Shown here one piece after another: positions 1 to 5,810 of a stretch of DNA of 5,810 nucleotides (positions within the stretch are counted from its first letter, which is position 1; each line of letters opens with the position of its first letter). The translations under genes were made by a program, and so were the position numbers. The notes beneath the pieces are model-generated. The model ran no database searches. It was not told the DNA's origin and saw only the letters and a program-made list of their open reading frames with translations. Origin of the DNA: Lentzea sp. (lineage in GTDB: Bacteria > Actinomycetota > Actinomycetes > Mycobacteriales > Pseudonocardiaceae); the NCBI GenBank assembly GCA_030146905.1, contig JASLAV010000375.1, positions 1-5,810 of the forward strand. The letters run 5' to 3'.

Positions 1-98
1 CCGCCCAGCAGCCACCAATCCGCAGAATAGTGCACACCGGGCTTTGCGCAGCCTTCTTTGGGGTTTTTCCTAAAGTCGAACGCACGCTCGCCGCGTCG

Positions 99-128
99 TT
101 GACACGGCCGGAGAGGGTCGTTCAGGAT
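99..128 (+). promoter_or_regulatory. Putative sigma-70/HrdB-type promoter of the operon
   Basis: A perfect -35 consensus TTGACA lies at 99-104. After an 18-base spacer comes CAGGAT at 123-128, which resembles the TAGGAT-like -10 boxes of actinomycete housekeeping promoters. Transcription would start near 135 and leave a leader of roughly 95 bases before the first gene at 232. The whole 1-231 stretch has no credible coding sequence on either strand, so a promoter is expected here. The call rests on pattern matching only; the 18-base spacing and the C in the first -10 position are slightly off consensus. Confidence 0.45.
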
Positions 129-217
129 GGTCGAGGCCGACCCACGAATTCCCGGCGCCGATCGAGAATCGGATTGCGCGCAGATCGGGAGCCGACGAGT
201 TTTCGGTGTTCAATTCC

Positions 218-224
218 GGAGGAG
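218..224 (+). promoter_or_regulatory. Strong ribosome binding site for the polyprenyl synthase gene
   Basis: GGAGGAG sits 7 bases before the ATG at 232 and is a near-perfect complement of the 16S rRNA 3' end. It decides the start of the first gene. An in-frame ATG at 127 would add 35 residues that look nothing like a prenyl synthase N-terminus and would start inside the putative -10 box. Confidence 0.8.
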
Positions 225-231
225 AATCCCG

Positions 232-1269
232 ATGAGCACACTCGACACCTCGTCGACCGGGCTCGCAGCCCTGCTGTCGCCGGGGGCGGTGCGGTCCACG
301 GTGCTGCCCGTCGTGCGGCAGCGGGTCTCCGACCTGGAGCCGACCCTGGCCAGGATCTGCCTCTACCACCTCGGCTTCACCGACGAACGCGGTGACCCCG
401 GCGGTGCGGGGAGCGGCAAACTGACCCGCGCGGCCCTGATGACGGCGGCGGCGCAGGGAGTCGGCCTGCGTCCGGAGGACGTCCGGTACCAGGCGGCGGC
501 GCTGGAGCTGCTGCACAACTCGACCCTGGTCCACGACGACATCATCGACGCGGACGAGCTGCGGCGAGGCCGGCCGGCCGCGTGGAAGGTGTTCGGCACC
601 GACCTGGCCATCCTGGCGGGGGACGCGTTGCAGGCCCTCGCGCTGCAGGTGGTCGTCGACGACCCCGGCCCCGGCCGCGCGGAGATCTCCAGCGCGTTCG
701 CGGAAGCCCTCCGCCTGGTGCTCGCCGGACAGTCCCGCGAGTTCACCGTCCGGCTGGGACCGGGCGGCGGCATCGCGGAGTACGTCCGGATCGTGGAGGA
801 GAAGACGTCCGCGCTGCTGGAGTGCGCACTGGTGACGCCGGCACTGCGGGCGGGCAGCCAGGAGCACGTCCTGGCCGCCCTGCGCGGTGCGGGCAGGCAC
901 CTGGGCCTCGCCTTCCAGATCGCCAACGACGTCGAGGACATCTGGGGCGACCCCGCGGTGACCGGCAAACCCGTCCGCGGCGACATCCAGCGGCGCAACC
1001 CGTCGTTCCCGGTGCTGGCGGCGTTCTCCGCCGACGGCCCGGCAGGCGAGCGGCTGCGCGAGCTGTGGCACGCCGACGGCACCACGACCGCACACCTGCA
1101 GGAGATGGCCGACCTCACCGAGGAGACCGGCGGCCGCCACACGGCCGAGCAGCGGTCCCGCGGCCATCTCGGCACGGCTCTGGAGCACCTCGGACGAGCC
1201 GGGCTGTCCCCGGCCGCGTCCGCCGAACTGACCGCCCTGTTCGACCGCATCGTCAACCGCACGGCATGA
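232..1269 (+). CDS. trans-Polyprenyl diphosphate synthase (isoprenoid chain elongation enzyme)
   Basis: A 345-residue protein of the all-alpha trans-isoprenyl diphosphate synthase family, which condenses isopentenyl diphosphate with an allylic diphosphate in the cytoplasm to make GPP, FPP, GGPP or longer chains. The first Asp-rich motif, HDDIID (D102, D103, D106), is intact and followed by the usual RRGRPAAW segment and an AGDAL motif near 129-133. The second motif reads NDVED at 232-236, where the family normally has DDxxD, so its first Asp is Asn. The downstream GKPVRGD is present (245-251), but the lysine usually found about five residues after that Asp is N256. The residue five before the first motif is small (S97), so it is not the bulky Tyr/Phe of short-chain farnesyl synthases; chain length cannot be read with confidence. 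As first gene of an operon with an aromatic prenyltransferase it most likely supplies the prenyl donor. The start at 232 is set by GGAGGAG at 218-224. The ORF ends with TGA overlapping an alternative ATG of the P450 gene. Confidence 0.94.
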   Translation: MSTLDTSSTGLAALLSPGAVRSTVLPVVRQRVSDLEPTLARICLYHLGFTDERGDPGGAGSGKLTRAALMTAAAQGVGLRPEDVRYQAAALELLHNSTLVHDDIIDADELRRGRPAAWKVFGTDLAILAGDALQALALQVVVDDPGPGRAEISSAFAEALRLVLAGQSREFTVRLGPGGGIAEYVRIVEEKTSALLECALVTPALRAGSQEHVLAALRGAGRHLGLAFQIANDVEDIWGDPAVTGKPVRGDIQRRNPSFPVLAAFSADGPAGERLRELWHADGTTTAHLQEMADLTEETGGRHTAEQRSRGHLGTALEHLGRAGLSPAASAELTALFDRIVNRTA

Positions 1270-1281
1270 CCCGTGACTCCC

Positions 1282-1286
1282 GGAGG
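1282..1286 (+). promoter_or_regulatory. Ribosome binding site deciding the GTG start of the P450 gene
   Basis: GGAGG lies 6 bases before GTG at 1293, an ideal spacing. The competing in-frame ATG at 1266, which overlaps the preceding stop as ATGA, has no purine-rich sequence at a suitable distance upstream and would put this GGAGG inside the coding region. The GTG is preferred. Confidence 0.65.
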
Positions 1287-1292
1287 TCGTCA

Positions 1293-2462
1293 GTGAGTAC
1301 CCCGGCTCAACTGCCTTTCGACCAGCCGAACGTGCTGCAGCTCGCGCCGCGGTTGCGCGAGTTGCAGTCCCAGGGCTCGGTCCACCGGGTTCGCACCGCC
1401 GACGGCGGCGACGCCTGGCTGGTCACCGGTCACGCCCAGGTGAGGCAGTTGCTCGACGACGACCGGCTCGGCCGCTCCAACCCCGATCCGGAGGCGCCGA
1501 AGGACGGCGGTTCGGCGCTCCTCGCCAGCCTCCTGGGGAGTTTCGCCACCGACCACGCCCGGATGCGCGCCCTGCTGGAGCCGCACTTCTCACCCGAGCG
1601 CATGGCGGAGCTGCGACCGTACGTCGAGAAGCAGACCGGGCAGCTCCTGGACCAGCTGGCCGAGCGGACGCCACCGGTGGACCTGCGCGAGGCGGTGGCG
1701 CTGTCGCTGCCGATCCAGGTGATGTGCGAGTGGCTGGGCGTGCCGCAGGAGGACAAGGACCGGTTCGGCGGCTGGACCCGGGACGCCGCGAACGTCAGCG
1801 ACCCGGTCCGATCCAAGCAGGGGCTCGGCGGGTTGTTCGGCTACTGCAAGCAGCTCATCGCCGACAAGCGGCGGAATCCGGGCGACGACGCGATCTCCAG
1901 GATCTGCGCGACCGGGGGGATCACCGACGACGAGGCCCTCGGACTGACGGCGTTGCTGCTGTTCGGCGGATATGAGACCACGGTGGCCCGGATCGGCACC
2001 TGTGTGTTGCTGTTGCTGGCCGACCTCGACCAGTGGCGGGCGCTCGTGGACGACCCCGGGCTCGTTCCCGGCGCCGTCGAGGAGACCCTGCGGAGGTCCA
2101 TGCCGAACCCGCACAACGGCGGCATGCCCCGGTACGCGCTGACGGACTTCGAGATCGACGGGGTCGCCATCACCACCGGCGACTTCGTGCTGCTGAACGT
2201 CATCGCGGCCAACCACGACGAGAAGGCCTTCGCCGGTGCCGACCGGGTCGACGTCACGCGCGACACCGCGGGCAGCCTCGCGTTCGGGTACGGCGCGTAC
2301 GACTGCGTGGGCGCGGCGCTGGCGCGGATGCAGCTGCAGGTGGTGCTCACGCAGCTCGTCACGCGGTTCCCGGCGATGCGCCTGGCCGTCGGTGTGGACG
2401 AGCTGGAACTGCGCCGCGACACGCTGATCGGCGGACTGGTCGAACTCCCCGTGACCTGGTGA
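1293..2462 (+). CDS. Cytochrome P450 with an atypical heme-binding loop
   Basis: A 389-residue soluble bacterial class-I-type P450 that would need a separate ferredoxin and reductase; neither is in the window. C-helix HARMR (H88, R92) would contact heme propionates. The I-helix oxygen-activation motif is GGYETT (225-230): Ala to Gly and the common His to Tyr, but the acid-alcohol pair E228-T229 is kept. The K-helix ExxR is E264-T-L-R267. The heme loop is FGYGAYDCVG (331-340) with C338 as axial ligand. The family pattern FGxGxHxCxG normally has His where Y336 stands, and D337 directly before the cysteine is unusual. The gene lies between prenyl synthase and aromatic prenyltransferase, so the substrate is probably the prenylated aromatic acid. 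By analogy with BezE of benzastatin biosynthesis it may cyclise an activated N-oxy arylamine onto the prenyl olefin instead of acting as a plain hydroxylase; that is inference. The ATG at 1266 (nine more residues) is the alternative start. No frameshift or truncation is visible. Confidence 0.95.
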   Translation: MSTPAQLPFDQPNVLQLAPRLRELQSQGSVHRVRTADGGDAWLVTGHAQVRQLLDDDRLGRSNPDPEAPKDGGSALLASLLGSFATDHARMRALLEPHFSPERMAELRPYVEKQTGQLLDQLAERTPPVDLREAVALSLPIQVMCEWLGVPQEDKDRFGGWTRDAANVSDPVRSKQGLGGLFGYCKQLIADKRRNPGDDAISRICATGGITDDEALGLTALLLFGGYETTVARIGTCVLLLLADLDQWRALVDDPGLVPGAVEETLRRSMPNPHNGGMPRYALTDFEIDGVAITTGDFVLLNVIAANHDEKAFAGADRVDVTRDTAGSLAFGYGAYDCVGAALARMQLQVVLTQLVTRFPAMRLAVGVDELELRRDTLIGGLVELPVTW

Positions 2463-2473
2463 TTGGGAACCTG

Positions 2474-3370
2474 ATGCTGCACAAGATATCCGCGGGCGTC
2501 GTCACGAGGAGCCCGCACTCGATCCGCTCGTACCTGCTGCTGATGCGGCTGGACAGGCCGACGGGGTACGTCCTCTACCTGCTGCCGGGACTGTGGGCCG
2601 TCGTCTTCGCCTCCGGGACGCGACCGGACCTGCTGTCGGTGGCGGCCGTCGCCGTCGCCGCGGTGCTGATCCGCGGCTTCGCCTGCGCGAGCAACGACGT
2701 CACCGACAAGGAGATCGACGCCCGCGTCGCCCGCACCGTGGGGCGGCCCGTCGCGGCGGGGACGATCAGCGTGCGGAACGGGATCCTCTGGGCCGCCGCG
2801 CAGGCCCTCGTCGCACTGCTGGTCCTCGCGGTGGCGAACGTCGGGACGGCCTTGGTCGCGCTGGCCACGTACCCGCTGATCGTCGCGTACCCCTTCATGA
2901 AGCGCTTCTTCGTCTGGCCCTCGGCGTTCCTCGGGCTGGTGATGAGCACCTACGTGTTCGTCGGCTGGACGGCGGCGACCGGGAACGCCGACTACCCGCT
3001 CCCGGTGTACGGCCTGTACGCGGCGGGAGCCTTCTGGACCATGATCCACGACGCGATCTACTCCCACCAGGACAAGGAGTACGACCGGAAGATCGGGGTC
3101 AAGTCCTCCGCCCTGCTGTTCGGCGGGGCCACCAAGGCGTGGCTGTCGGTCTTCATCGTCCTCAGCGTCGCCGGCGTGGTGTGGGCCGGTTCGCTCACGC
3201 CGATCGGGTGGGCCTTCTACGTGGTCGTCGTGCTGGCGGCGAGCTACCTGTCCTACCTGGTCTTCCGGGTGGACCTGGACGATCCGAAGGCGTGCTGGGA
3301 CACGTTCGTCGCCAACACCAACTACGGCTGGATCGTGCTCGCGGCCGTGATCGCCGGGCAGTTCACATGA
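2474..3370 (+). CDS. UbiA-family membrane aromatic prenyltransferase (4-hydroxybenzoate/PABA type)
   Basis: A 298-residue, very hydrophobic integral membrane protein with several probable transmembrane helices (for example about 33-47, 54-70, 107-137, 150-167, 180-195, 222-238, 243-264, 284-296). It has both Mg-diphosphate binding motifs of the superfamily: NDVTDKEID (N74, D75, D78, D82; NDxxDxxxD) and DKEYD (D200, D204; DxxxD), followed by KIGVKSSALLFG. It closely follows the 4-hydroxybenzoate polyprenyltransferase subgroup: LRLDRP-like opening (MRLDRPTGY, 24-32), GRPVAAG, YPFMKR (139-144). These enzymes attach a prenyl chain to the aromatic ring ortho to the hydroxyl or amino group. Actinobacteria make menaquinone, not ubiquinone, so a UbiA subgroup member here suggests specialised metabolism. 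The adjacent PabAB gene makes p-aminobenzoate the best acceptor guess. Start: ATG 2474 has a weak GGGA 5 bases upstream; GTG 2459, overlapping the P450 stop as GTGA, would add five residues and is possible. Its stop overlaps the NAT start. Confidence 0.94.
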   Translation: MLHKISAGVVTRSPHSIRSYLLLMRLDRPTGYVLYLLPGLWAVVFASGTRPDLLSVAAVAVAAVLIRGFACASNDVTDKEIDARVARTVGRPVAAGTISVRNGILWAAAQALVALLVLAVANVGTALVALATYPLIVAYPFMKRFFVWPSAFLGLVMSTYVFVGWTAATGNADYPLPVYGLYAAGAFWTMIHDAIYSHQDKEYDRKIGVKSSALLFGGATKAWLSVFIVLSVAGVVWAGSLTPIGWAFYVVVVLAASYLSYLVFRVDLDDPKACWDTFVANTNYGWIVLAAVIAGQFT

Positions 3371-4197
3371 GCGGCTCGATGTGGCAGGGGAGCGGCGTCG
3401 ACCTGGACGCCTACCTGACCCGCGTGGGTTACGAGGGCGACGTGGCCGCGGACCTGTCCACGTTGCGGCGCCTGCACACCGCCCACGTCGACGCGATCCC
3501 GTTCGACAACCTCGACGCGCTGCTCGGGCGAGCGGCGGTGCCGCTCGACCTGGACAGCGTCCAGGAGAAGATCGTGCGGCAGGGCCGCGGAGGCTGGTGC
3601 CTCGAACAGGTCGTGCTGATGGCGGCCGTGCTGGACCGCATCGGGTTCACGTTCACGGCGTTCGCCGGCAGGACGCGGATCCGCACCGGGAACAGGTTCG
3701 GTCCCGCCCTGCACGTCGCGCTCCTCGTCGACGTGGAAGGCGAACGCTGGCTCCACGACGTGAGCTTCGGTGCCCACGGGCTGCACGAGCCGATCCGGTT
3801 CGCCGGGAACGCGCGGCTCGACGGCGACTTCTCGTTCGACCTCGTGCGGGAGCCGAGCGGTGAGCACGTGCTGCGGTTCCTGCGGCCGGAGGGACCGGCG
3901 GAGCTCTACGGCTTCACCACGGACGTGCGCTACCCGTCGGACTTCGAGCTCCTCAACCACTTCTGCCTCACGCACCCGCGCTCGCCGTTCAACCACCGCA
4001 TGATCCTCCAGCGCACGAGGCCCGAGGTGAGGCACCTCCTCGTCGGCACCTCGCTCACCGAACTCCGGCCGGGAGCACCGGCGACGGTCCGCGAGCTCGA
4101 CGAGACCGAGGCGCTGTCCGCTCCCGAGCAGATCTTCGGGATCACGGTGGAACCAGGCGACATCCAGACACTCCGGAAGACCTTGGCCGGCCCATGA
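3367..4197 (+). CDS. Arylamine N-acetyltransferase (NAT) family acyltransferase
   Basis: A 276-residue cytoplasmic protein of normal NAT length. NATs move an acetyl group from acetyl-CoA via a cysteine thioester to arylamines, hydrazines or N-arylhydroxylamines. The catalytic triad is intact: C78 in RGGWCLEQ, H116 in FGPALHV, and D131 in HDVSFG. The spacings of 38 and 15 residues equal those of the Salmonella enzyme (C69, H107, D122). An IPFDNLD segment near 44-50 is another family hallmark. Minor departures are DVSFG for the usual DVGFG, and Val in place of Asn after the CxEQ segment. RifF-type amide synthases share the fold, but no polyketide synthase is seen here. In this operon the likely substrate is the amino or hydroxylamino group of prenylated PABA. 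O-acetylation of a hydroxylamine would prime it for N-O cleavage by the P450, as described for BezG/BezE in benzastatin biosynthesis. Plain N-acetylation is the alternative. The ATG overlaps the UbiA gene stop (ATGA) and has no clear own ribosome binding site, so it is probably translationally coupled. ATG 3379 is a minor alternative start. Confidence 0.94.
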   Translation: MSGSMWQGSGVDLDAYLTRVGYEGDVAADLSTLRRLHTAHVDAIPFDNLDALLGRAAVPLDLDSVQEKIVRQGRGGWCLEQVVLMAAVLDRIGFTFTAFAGRTRIRTGNRFGPALHVALLVDVEGERWLHDVSFGAHGLHEPIRFAGNARLDGDFSFDLVREPSGEHVLRFLRPEGPAELYGFTTDVRYPSDFELLNHFCLTHPRSPFNHRMILQRTRPEVRHLLVGTSLTELRPGAPATVRELDETEALSAPEQIFGITVEPGDIQTLRKTLAGP

Positions 4198-5810
4198 CGC
4201 GCACACTGCTGGTGGACAACTACGACTCGTACACCTTCAACCTGTACCAGCTGATCGCCGAGATCAACGGCCAGGAGCCGGTCGTCGTGGTCAACGACGA
4301 CCCCGCGCTGCTCGACCTGCGGCTGGAGGAGTTCGACAACATCGTCGTCTCGCCCGGTCCCGGCCGGCCGCAGAACTCCCGCGACGTCGGCCTCGTCGGG
4401 GAGCTGTTGCGGCGCACCACGTTGCCGGTGCTGGGTGTCTGCCTCGGCCACCAGATCATCGGGCACCTGGCGGGCGCGACCGTGTCCTCCGCGCCGGAGC
4501 CGCGGCACGGTCACCTCGCCAAGGTCTCCCACGACGGGGACCCGCTGTTCGCCGGGGTGCCTCGTGAGTTCGTCGCGGTGCGGTACCACTCGCTGTGCGT
4601 GCAGGAGCCCCTGCCGGAGGAGCTCGTCCCGATCGCGTGGGCGGACGACGGCGTGCTGATGGCGTTGCGGCACAAGGACCTGCCGCAGTGGGGCGTGCAG
4701 TTTCACCCCGAGTCGGTCGCCTCCGGGTACGGCAGGGAGATCCTGCGGAACTTCGCCGAGCTCACGCACCGGGCTCGCGGGTCCGGGGAACTGGGGCTCA
4801 TCAGCACCGTCGTCCCGACCGCCGCCGACGCCGAGTCCGTCTTCCTGGAGCTGTTCGGCGAGAGCCCCGACTGCTTCTGGCTCGACAGCAGCCGGGTCGA
4901 GGAAGGCCTGTCCCGGTTCTCGTTCCTGGGCGACACGTCCGGCCCGCTCAGCGAGGTCGTGACCTACCGCACCGGCAGCGGGGTGGTGCGGGTGCGCGAC
5001 GCCGCCGGCGTCCGCGACGTCCCCGGCACCGTGTTCGACTTCCTGGAGCGGCGGCTGCGCGAGCGGCGGGTTCCCGACACGACCCTGCCGTTCAACCTGA
5101 CCGGCGGGTATGTCGGCTACTTCGGGTACGAGCTCAAGGCCGAATGCGGTGCCACGGCCGGCCACACCGCCGAAACCCCGGACGCCGCTTGGATGTTCGC
5201 CGACCGGATCGTCGCGGTCGACCACCAGGAGGGGCTGACCTACCTGGTCGCCGTGCACGAGGAGGCGACCCGGCGCGACGCCCGGGAATGGGTGGACCGG
5301 ACGGCGACCGTCCTCACCGGACTGCGCCCAGCCGGGGACGAGGTCCCCGGCGACGAACCCTGCGCGCCTCCTGACGCCGAGGAACACCTGGTCCGCGACC
5401 GGGACCAGTACCTGGCGGACATCGCGGAGTGCCAACGCCAGCTGCGACTGGGCGAGAGCTACGAGATCTGCCTGACGAACAAGCTGCACCTGCCGTTCCG
5501 CGACGACGACACCTCGTTCTACCGGCGGCTGCGCCGGGCGAACCCGGCGCCGTACGCCGCGCTGGTGCGCCTCGGCGACATGACGGTCTTCTGCTCGTCA
5601 CCGGAACGCTTCCTGCGCATCGAGCGGGACGGCGCGGTCACCAGCAAGCCGATCAAGGGCACCGCTCCCCGCGACGCCGACCCCGTGCGCGACGCCGAGA
5701 TCGCCGCCACCCTCGCCTCGAGCGCCAAGACGCAGGCCGAGAACCTGATGATCGTCGACCTGCTGCGCAACGACCTGGGCAGGGTGTGCGAGGTGGGCAG
5801 CATCGACGTC
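4194..5810 (+). CDS. pabAB: Fused aminodeoxychorismate synthase PabA-PabB, 3' end cut by window
   Basis: The first 539 residues of a fused two-domain enzyme (full family length is roughly 670-720) that makes 4-amino-4-deoxychorismate from chorismate and glutamine. Residues 1 to about 195 are a class I glutamine amidotransferase: VDNYDSYTFNL at 7-17, SPGPGRP at 53-59, nucleophile C83 in GVCLGHQ, and H171/E173 in QFHPES. A short linker near 195-205 leads into the chorismate-binding PabB domain: SRFSFLG near 240-246, NLTGGYVGYFGYE near 301-313, ESYEICLTN at 421-429, FCSSPERF at 466-473, PIKGT at 486-490 and the metal/chorismate segment ENLMIVDLLRNDLGR at 516-530. K488 in PIKGT is the signature of aminodeoxychorismate synthases; anthranilate and ADIC synthases have Ala there (PIAGT). 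The final metal-binding and C-terminal part lies beyond 5810. The ATG overlaps the NAT stop as ATGA, so it belongs to the same operon and acts as a pathway-dedicated PABA supply gene. PabC, the lyase that finishes PABA, is not in the window and may follow or come from primary metabolism. Confidence 0.96.
   Translation, partial: MTRTLLVDNYDSYTFNLYQLIAEINGQEPVVVVNDDPALLDLRLEEFDNIVVSPGPGRPQNSRDVGLVGELLRRTTLPVLGVCLGHQIIGHLAGATVSSAPEPRHGHLAKVSHDGDPLFAGVPREFVAVRYHSLCVQEPLPEELVPIAWADDGVLMALRHKDLPQWGVQFHPESVASGYGREILRNFAELTHRARGSGELGLISTVVPTAADAESVFLELFGESPDCFWLDSSRVEEGLSRFSFLGDTSGPLSEVVTYRTGSGVVRVRDAAGVRDVPGTVFDFLERRLRERRVPDTTLPFNLTGGYVGYFGYELKAECGATAGHTAETPDAAWMFADRIVAVDHQEGLTYLVAVHEEATRRDAREWVDRTATVLTGLRPAGDEVPGDEPCAPPDAEEHLVRDRDQYLADIAECQRQLRLGESYEICLTNKLHLPFRDDDTSFYRRLRRANPAPYAALVRLGDMTVFCSSPERFLRIERDGAVTSKPIKGTAPRDADPVRDAEIAATLASSAKTQAENLMIVDLLRNDLGRVCEVGSIDV

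Follow-up and report, generated by a model that had tools for sequence, protein, structure and literature searches.

Five core genes of a very probable benzastatin/virantmycin-type biosynthetic cluster from a Lentzea-clade actinobacterium

The closest described system to the genes analyzed here is the benzastatin (bez) pathway of soil bacteria, in which a terpene chain is attached to p-aminobenzoic acid and a nitrogen ring is subsequently closed. The cytochrome P450 BezE has been called the first natural nitrene transferase known among P450s (PMC10646976). It removes acetate from geranylated p-acetoxyaminobenzoate to give an iron nitrenoid, from which a three-membered ring and then an indoline or tetrahydroquinoline is formed (PMC11843346; the nitrenoid mechanism is also described in PMC10646976). 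The three-membered ring is opened by hydroxide or chloride (PMC9866866), and the product of BezA is 6-methyl-geranyl diphosphate (6-methyl-GPP) (PMC10881772). Streptomyces sp. RI18 is the strain of the benzastatin cluster BGC0001529, in which the bezG product is classed as an O-acetyltransferase, with p-hydroxyaminobenzoate as its possible substrate (PMC11213898). The source of BezA is given as Streptomyces argenteolus in one review (PMC10881772), and the bezG strain as RI18 in another (PMC11213898). Virantmycin is mentioned from S. nitrosporeus (PMC8510958). Here, a stretch of 5810 bases from Lentzea sp. (assembly GCA_030146905.1, contig JASLAV010000375.1; hereafter the window) was analyzed, which very likely holds the core genes of a biosynthetic cluster of the benzastatin/virantmycin type in an actinobacterium of the Lentzea clade.

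The window contains five genes, all on the plus strand (Table 1), which encode a polyprenyl diphosphate synthase, a P450, a UbiA-family prenyltransferase, an arylamine N-acetyltransferase (NAT) homologue and a fused PabAB. The strongest tie to the bez cluster is provided by two of these proteins. The UbiA protein showed 74.5% identity (298 aa) to protein P0286 of Streptomyces sp. RI18, the single RI18-named protein among the 120 matches listed of 195, and the NAT showed 83.3% identity (276 aa) to P0038, the single RI18-named protein among 103 NAT homologues. From strain and family, P0038 was taken to be BezG and P0286 to be BezF, the UbiA prenyltransferase of the benzastatin cluster. Both Asp-rich motifs are present in the UbiA protein. 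The NAT contains the motifs RGGWC (Cys) and LHDVSFG (Asp), and the His of the Cys-His-Asp triad was read from the sequence; among the 92 NATs listed first, the window's included, the Cys and Asp patterns were both found in 90, and in two the Asp pattern was not found.

All five proteins exceeded the curated Pfam cut-offs, and PabAB, which is cut by the window end after 539 aa, matched GATase (3.8e-44) and Chorismate_bind (1.4e-35). NCBIfam agreed on the families, and one of the 74 matches listed, TIGR00566 (PabA/TrpG amidotransferase), passed its curated cut-off; for a specialised pathway, scores mostly below cut-off may be expected. The start codon of the P450 gene is GTG, its position being set by homology. 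UbiA and NAT, and likewise NAT and PabAB, overlap by 4 bases (ATGA), and the last three genes are thereby read as coupled. An initial annotation, made from the sequence alone, had proposed five adjacent, coupled genes of these families and assigned them to the benzastatin/virantmycin type. The former is borne out by the Pfam matches, the overlaps and the conservation of the gene order in the five closest loci, the latter is supported by the comparison of UbiA and NAT with the proteins of the bez strain and by the gene content of related loci.

Table 1. Features of the window with their coordinates (stop codons included) and supporting matches
Feature	Coordinates	Strand	Evidence
Upstream intergenic region	1..231	.	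aligns to L001 from 7496 onward; divergent P450 of L001 starts at 7420 (gene call)
Polyprenyl diphosphate synthase, presumed geranyl diphosphate synthase (predicted chain length)	232..1269	+	PF00348 2.7e-49
Cytochrome P450, presumed nitrene-transfer cyclase (BezE-type by synteny)	1293..2462	+	PF00067 4.1e-18
UbiA-family prenyltransferase, BezF-type, presumed PABA C-geranyltransferase	2474..3370	+	PF01040 1.9e-51
Arylamine N-acetyltransferase (NAT) homologue, BezG-type, presumed hydroxylamine O-acetylation	3367..4197	+	PF00797 (Acetyltransf_2) 8.2e-54
Fused PabAB, aminodeoxychorismate synthase, runs past the window end	4194..5810	+	PF00117, PF04715, PF00425

Bacterial genomes were scanned with the UbiA protein and 80 of 152 relatives were kept. 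Gene content was examined in 25 of these loci (L001-L025), and L001-L020 were examined further. Since genes of the relatives were called with simple codon models, by which some were missed or merged, presence was recounted by tblastn. UbiA identity was 61-95% for L001-L020, which are actinobacterial by record title (Lentzea, Umezawaea, Nocardia, Streptomyces, Kitasatospora, Actinoplanes), and at most 39% for the other 60 kept loci. P450, UbiA and NAT occurred together in 20 of the 25 loci, that is in every one of L001-L020 and in none of L021-L025, where P450 and NAT are missing. The synthase gene was found in 16 of the 20 related loci. PabAB of at least 75% identity was present in 15 and solely a more distant PabAB (50-52%) in five. 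This second PabAB co-occurs with a second type of AurF-like gene in L008, L011, L015, L016 and L018, and L004 carries both PabAB types.

The whole five-gene order, with gaps of at most 310 bases, was observed in 12 of the 20 relatives. In L014, 1.4 kb separates NAT from PabAB, in L017 a methyltransferase gene is inserted between synthase and P450, and in the remaining six either the synthase gene or the PabAB type of at least 75% identity is absent. The order of the window is kept in L001-L005, which share 87.8-90.4% DNA identity across essentially the whole window (L001, 90.4%; L003, 90.3%; L004, 87.8%), far beyond chance. In a tree of UbiA and NAT, the window was placed within the L001-L005 clade (ultrafast bootstrap 100) beside L004 (91), and the branches of the Streptomyces loci, RI18 included, were mostly weakly supported. 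Within the genus of L001, NAT was found in 6 of 24 genomes.

In the relatives, the stretch matching the first 231 bases of the window is the gap between a divergent P450 gene and the synthase gene. In L001, the genes Dxs, IspH, a BezA orthologue, a second methyltransferase and the divergent P450 precede the five window-type genes, which are followed by a PabC-like aminotransferase, an AurF-like N-oxygenase, a class II 3-deoxy-D-arabino-heptulosonate 7-phosphate (DAHP) synthase, a carbamoyltransferase and a P450. The BezA orthologue of L001 scored 576 bits to the BezA structure (PDB 7fbh). By tblastn, BezA orthologues were identified in 15 of the 20 related loci, PabC-like genes in 14 and the divergent P450 in 16. 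All 20 carry an AurF-like N-oxygenase gene, which falls into two types (15 and 5). Synthase gene and BezA thus vary among the relatives, because they are absent from the locus in four and five of them, respectively. Candidates for the N-hydroxylase, GPP methyltransferase and PabC for which the initial annotation had proposed to inspect the flanks are encoded beside the cluster in close relatives. Its statement that the window encodes exactly the steps needed requires correction: the window has no gene for an N-oxygenase, a PabC or a methyltransferase, all of which were found in relatives alone.

Further genes adjoin the cluster in the relatives. The genes ispG, dxs and ispH of the methylerythritol phosphate (MEP) pathway lie next to it (L001:1042-3880; L090:6-269), with ispG at the left edge of the L001 surroundings as identified by a family scan on the L010 copy. 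MEP genes beside the cluster suggest a dedicated isoprenoid supply; in L001, genes for both halves, the MEP and the shikimate pathway, accompany the cluster. Beyond ispG, three of the genes scanned encode LuxR-type regulators. On the other side, four scanned genes of L089 encode a methyltransferase, a solute-binding/VWA protein, a GMC oxidoreductase and a reductase with a carrier domain, and these were taken to lie outside the cluster. In two Streptomyces loci, DAHP synthase and P450 share a single stop-free frame (L012:12272-14878; L020, 903 aa, ending at 18367), which possibly encodes a fusion protein.

The window fits the published BezE/BezA route, and by analogy with it we infer each catalytic step in the window's organism, the order of the steps, the chain length and the product. 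PabAB, together with a PabC encoded outside the window, would form p-aminobenzoate (PABA), and the polyprenyl synthase would form GPP, which is probably methylated at C6 by a BezA encoded outside the window. An AurF-like N-oxygenase, also encoded outside the window, would convert the amine to an arylhydroxylamine, which would be O-acetylated by NAT, so that acetate could serve as leaving group. The UbiA enzyme would attach the (methyl)geranyl chain to the ring position next to the nitrogen. The P450 would then expel acetate to give an iron nitrenoid and aziridinate the chain, and opening of the aziridine by water or chloride would lead to an indoline or tetrahydroquinoline as the predicted product.

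The motifs of the remaining proteins were compared with those of their relatives. PabAB contains TSKPIKGTAPR and GVCLGHQ. The lysine of PIKGT separates aminodeoxychorismate synthase from anthranilate synthase. The PIKGT motif noted in the initial annotation was indeed found both in the window and in 20 of 20 relatives; marked by it, the window's PabAB is, as judged from its sequence, an aminodeoxychorismate synthase for PABA supply. The synthase carries HDDIID and NDVED. This second Asp-rich motif begins with Asn in the window, as it does in 13 of the 16 relatives that have the gene, and a pattern search for the motif gave no match in L015-L017. The synthase also scored 299.8 bits against the NCBIfam model of family 2 encapsulin cargo polyprenyl transferases (cut-off 450). 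A link to encapsulins suggested by this match below the cut-off was set aside; by family, the 15 genes called in L001 include no encapsulin gene.

Among the 120 P450s listed of 983 homologues, the window's included, the cysteine heme motif FxxGxxxCxG was found in 119 and the I-helix motif GGYETT was kept in 114. The Tyr two places before the heme Cys is common to other P450s listed, where it alternates with His. The suggestion of the initial annotation that gene order, the fused PabAB and motif changes might mark a relative differing in chain length or ring system was therefore not upheld: the order is kept in 12 of the 20 relatives and for this reason marks no new ring system, the PabAB type and BezA each occur in 15, and the P450 Tyr is not particular to the window.

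Several points weigh against the benzastatin-type assignment. The identification of P0038 and P0286 as BezG and BezF is drawn from strain and family. No P450 named RI18 (BezE) was present among the 120 matches listed of 983, and the BezE orthology of the window P450 therefore rests on synteny, a P450 of one family adjoining UbiA and NAT in all of L001-L020. BezA and N-oxygenase are both absent from the window itself. In addition, five of the 20 relatives have no BezA in the locus (L012 has it elsewhere in the assembly), and four have no synthase gene there.

Among other explanations, the one that survives best, albeit as an improbable one, is a prenylated aminobenzoate on which NAT forms a stable N-acetyl amide, with the P450 acting as an ordinary hydroxylase or epoxidase and no ring closure of the chain through nitrogen. 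NATs are usually N-acetyltransferases, the top-scoring P450 relatives among solved structures include ordinary oxidative P450s, with pentalenolactone synthase first, and the GGYETT motif is widespread among the P450s listed. Against this, the window NAT is closely related to the RI18 NAT, which may O-acetylate p-hydroxyaminobenzoate (PMC11213898), and simple acetylation of the amine would leave the AurF-like N-oxygenase encoded in all 20 loci without an evident role.

It is considered very improbable that the genes form a sub-pathway supplying a prenylated aminobenzoate to a larger scaffold, for example a polyketide, with NAT as amide synthase. Ansamycin polyketides are substrates of NAT homologues such as GdmF, which the window NAT matched distantly (8ot2, 58.5 bits). 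The initial annotation had named a large polyketide synthase nearby as evidence for such a sub-pathway. A ketosynthase search in the genomes of three relatives gave 64, 39 and 23 matches. On the cluster contig, the 200 kb around the cluster were free of them in G001 and G005, as was the 65 kb cluster contig of G003. A quinone-type pathway, in which UbiA prenylates 4-hydroxybenzoate as in ubiquinone or xiamenmycin formation, is just as improbable: the best NCBIfam match of UbiA is indeed 4-hydroxybenzoate octaprenyltransferase, but its 251.8 bits are below the curated cut-off of 275.45, the operon contains PabAB with PIKGT, the 15 genes called in L001 include, by family, no chorismate lyase gene, and UbiA is far closer to the RI18 protein than to those of proteobacterial loci (at most 39%).

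Within the benzastatin-type loci, tailoring genes vary. A NodU-related carbamoyltransferase (618 bits, cut-off 1000) was paired with one extra P450 in all seven loci that have the carbamoyltransferase, out of 20 (L001:16593-19516, with counterparts in L002, L003, L005, L007, L012 and L020). The L012 match covers 90% of the carbamoyltransferase query; a match over 16% in L013 was not counted as present, and neither were 27-37% matches to the extra P450s, which were taken as cross-hits to other P450s. The carbamoyltransferase was found in 6 of 10 genomes searched, in one copy each. Of the five loci in the window's clade, L001, L002, L003 and L005 carry carbamoyltransferase and P450. Because four of these five loci have the gene and the tree neighbour L004 is without it, its presence at the window's cluster is uncertain. 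We consider it a tentative possibility, with the chances somewhat against it, that the window belongs to a Lentzea-type branch making a new congener: on a 6-methylgeranyl benzastatin, the extra P450 would add a hydroxyl group and the NodU-type carbamoyltransferase an O-carbamoyl group.

A second variation was observed in L015-L017, where a GPP 2-C-methyltransferase-like gene is located between synthase and P450 (L015:7830-8708 and matching genes in L016 and L017). The encoded protein scored 233 bits to 4f84 and 327.2 bits against a curated cut-off of 400, thus remaining below it. A BezA search in the genomes of L015-L017 gave no match; as a control, BezA was found in five of six other genomes, one of which was the query's own. 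The miss was L014, whose locus has neither BezA nor a GPP 2-C-methyltransferase-like gene. A second homologue of the latter protein, 45% identical, is encoded elsewhere in the L015 genome. From this gene content, it is possible that the position of methylation is swapped in the benzastatin pathway of L015-L017. Methylation of C2 by the cluster enzyme would be predicted to leave an extra methyl group on the alkene attacked by the P450.

In the literature searched, no paper joined benzastatin and Lentzea. Within it, benzastatin and carbamoyl co-occurred in a single synthesis review, and benzastatin and 2-methyl-GPP in the review PMC10881772. The 20 loci of the benzastatin cluster type offer many natural variants of the BezE nitrene transferase, and they show where tailoring seems to differ, namely by a carbamoylation module in one set and by the kind of GPP methyltransferase in another.

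Compared with the known bez cluster of RI18, the window shares closely related UbiA and NAT proteins, and its related loci mostly encode a BezA orthologue, whereas its host belongs to the Lentzea clade; the comparison with RI18 covered the UbiA and NAT proteins, and, as a candidate difference, a carbamoyltransferase and a further P450 are encoded in four of five Lentzea-type relatives. The Lentzea loci L001-L003 and L005 and Nocardia sp. NRRL S-836 (L004) have the same five genes in the same order as the window; L004 differs in having no carbamoyltransferase match in the genome and no PabC-like gene in the locus. The loci of S. lanatus, S. ureilyticus and Actinoplanes sp. RD1 (L015-L017) resemble the window in their synthase, P450, UbiA, NAT, AurF-like and PabAB genes, but differ in the GPP 2-C-methyltransferase-like gene, with no BezA match in the three genomes. 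The novelty of the window itself is therefore modest, and it represents a further, Lentzea-clade example of the already described benzastatin pathway.

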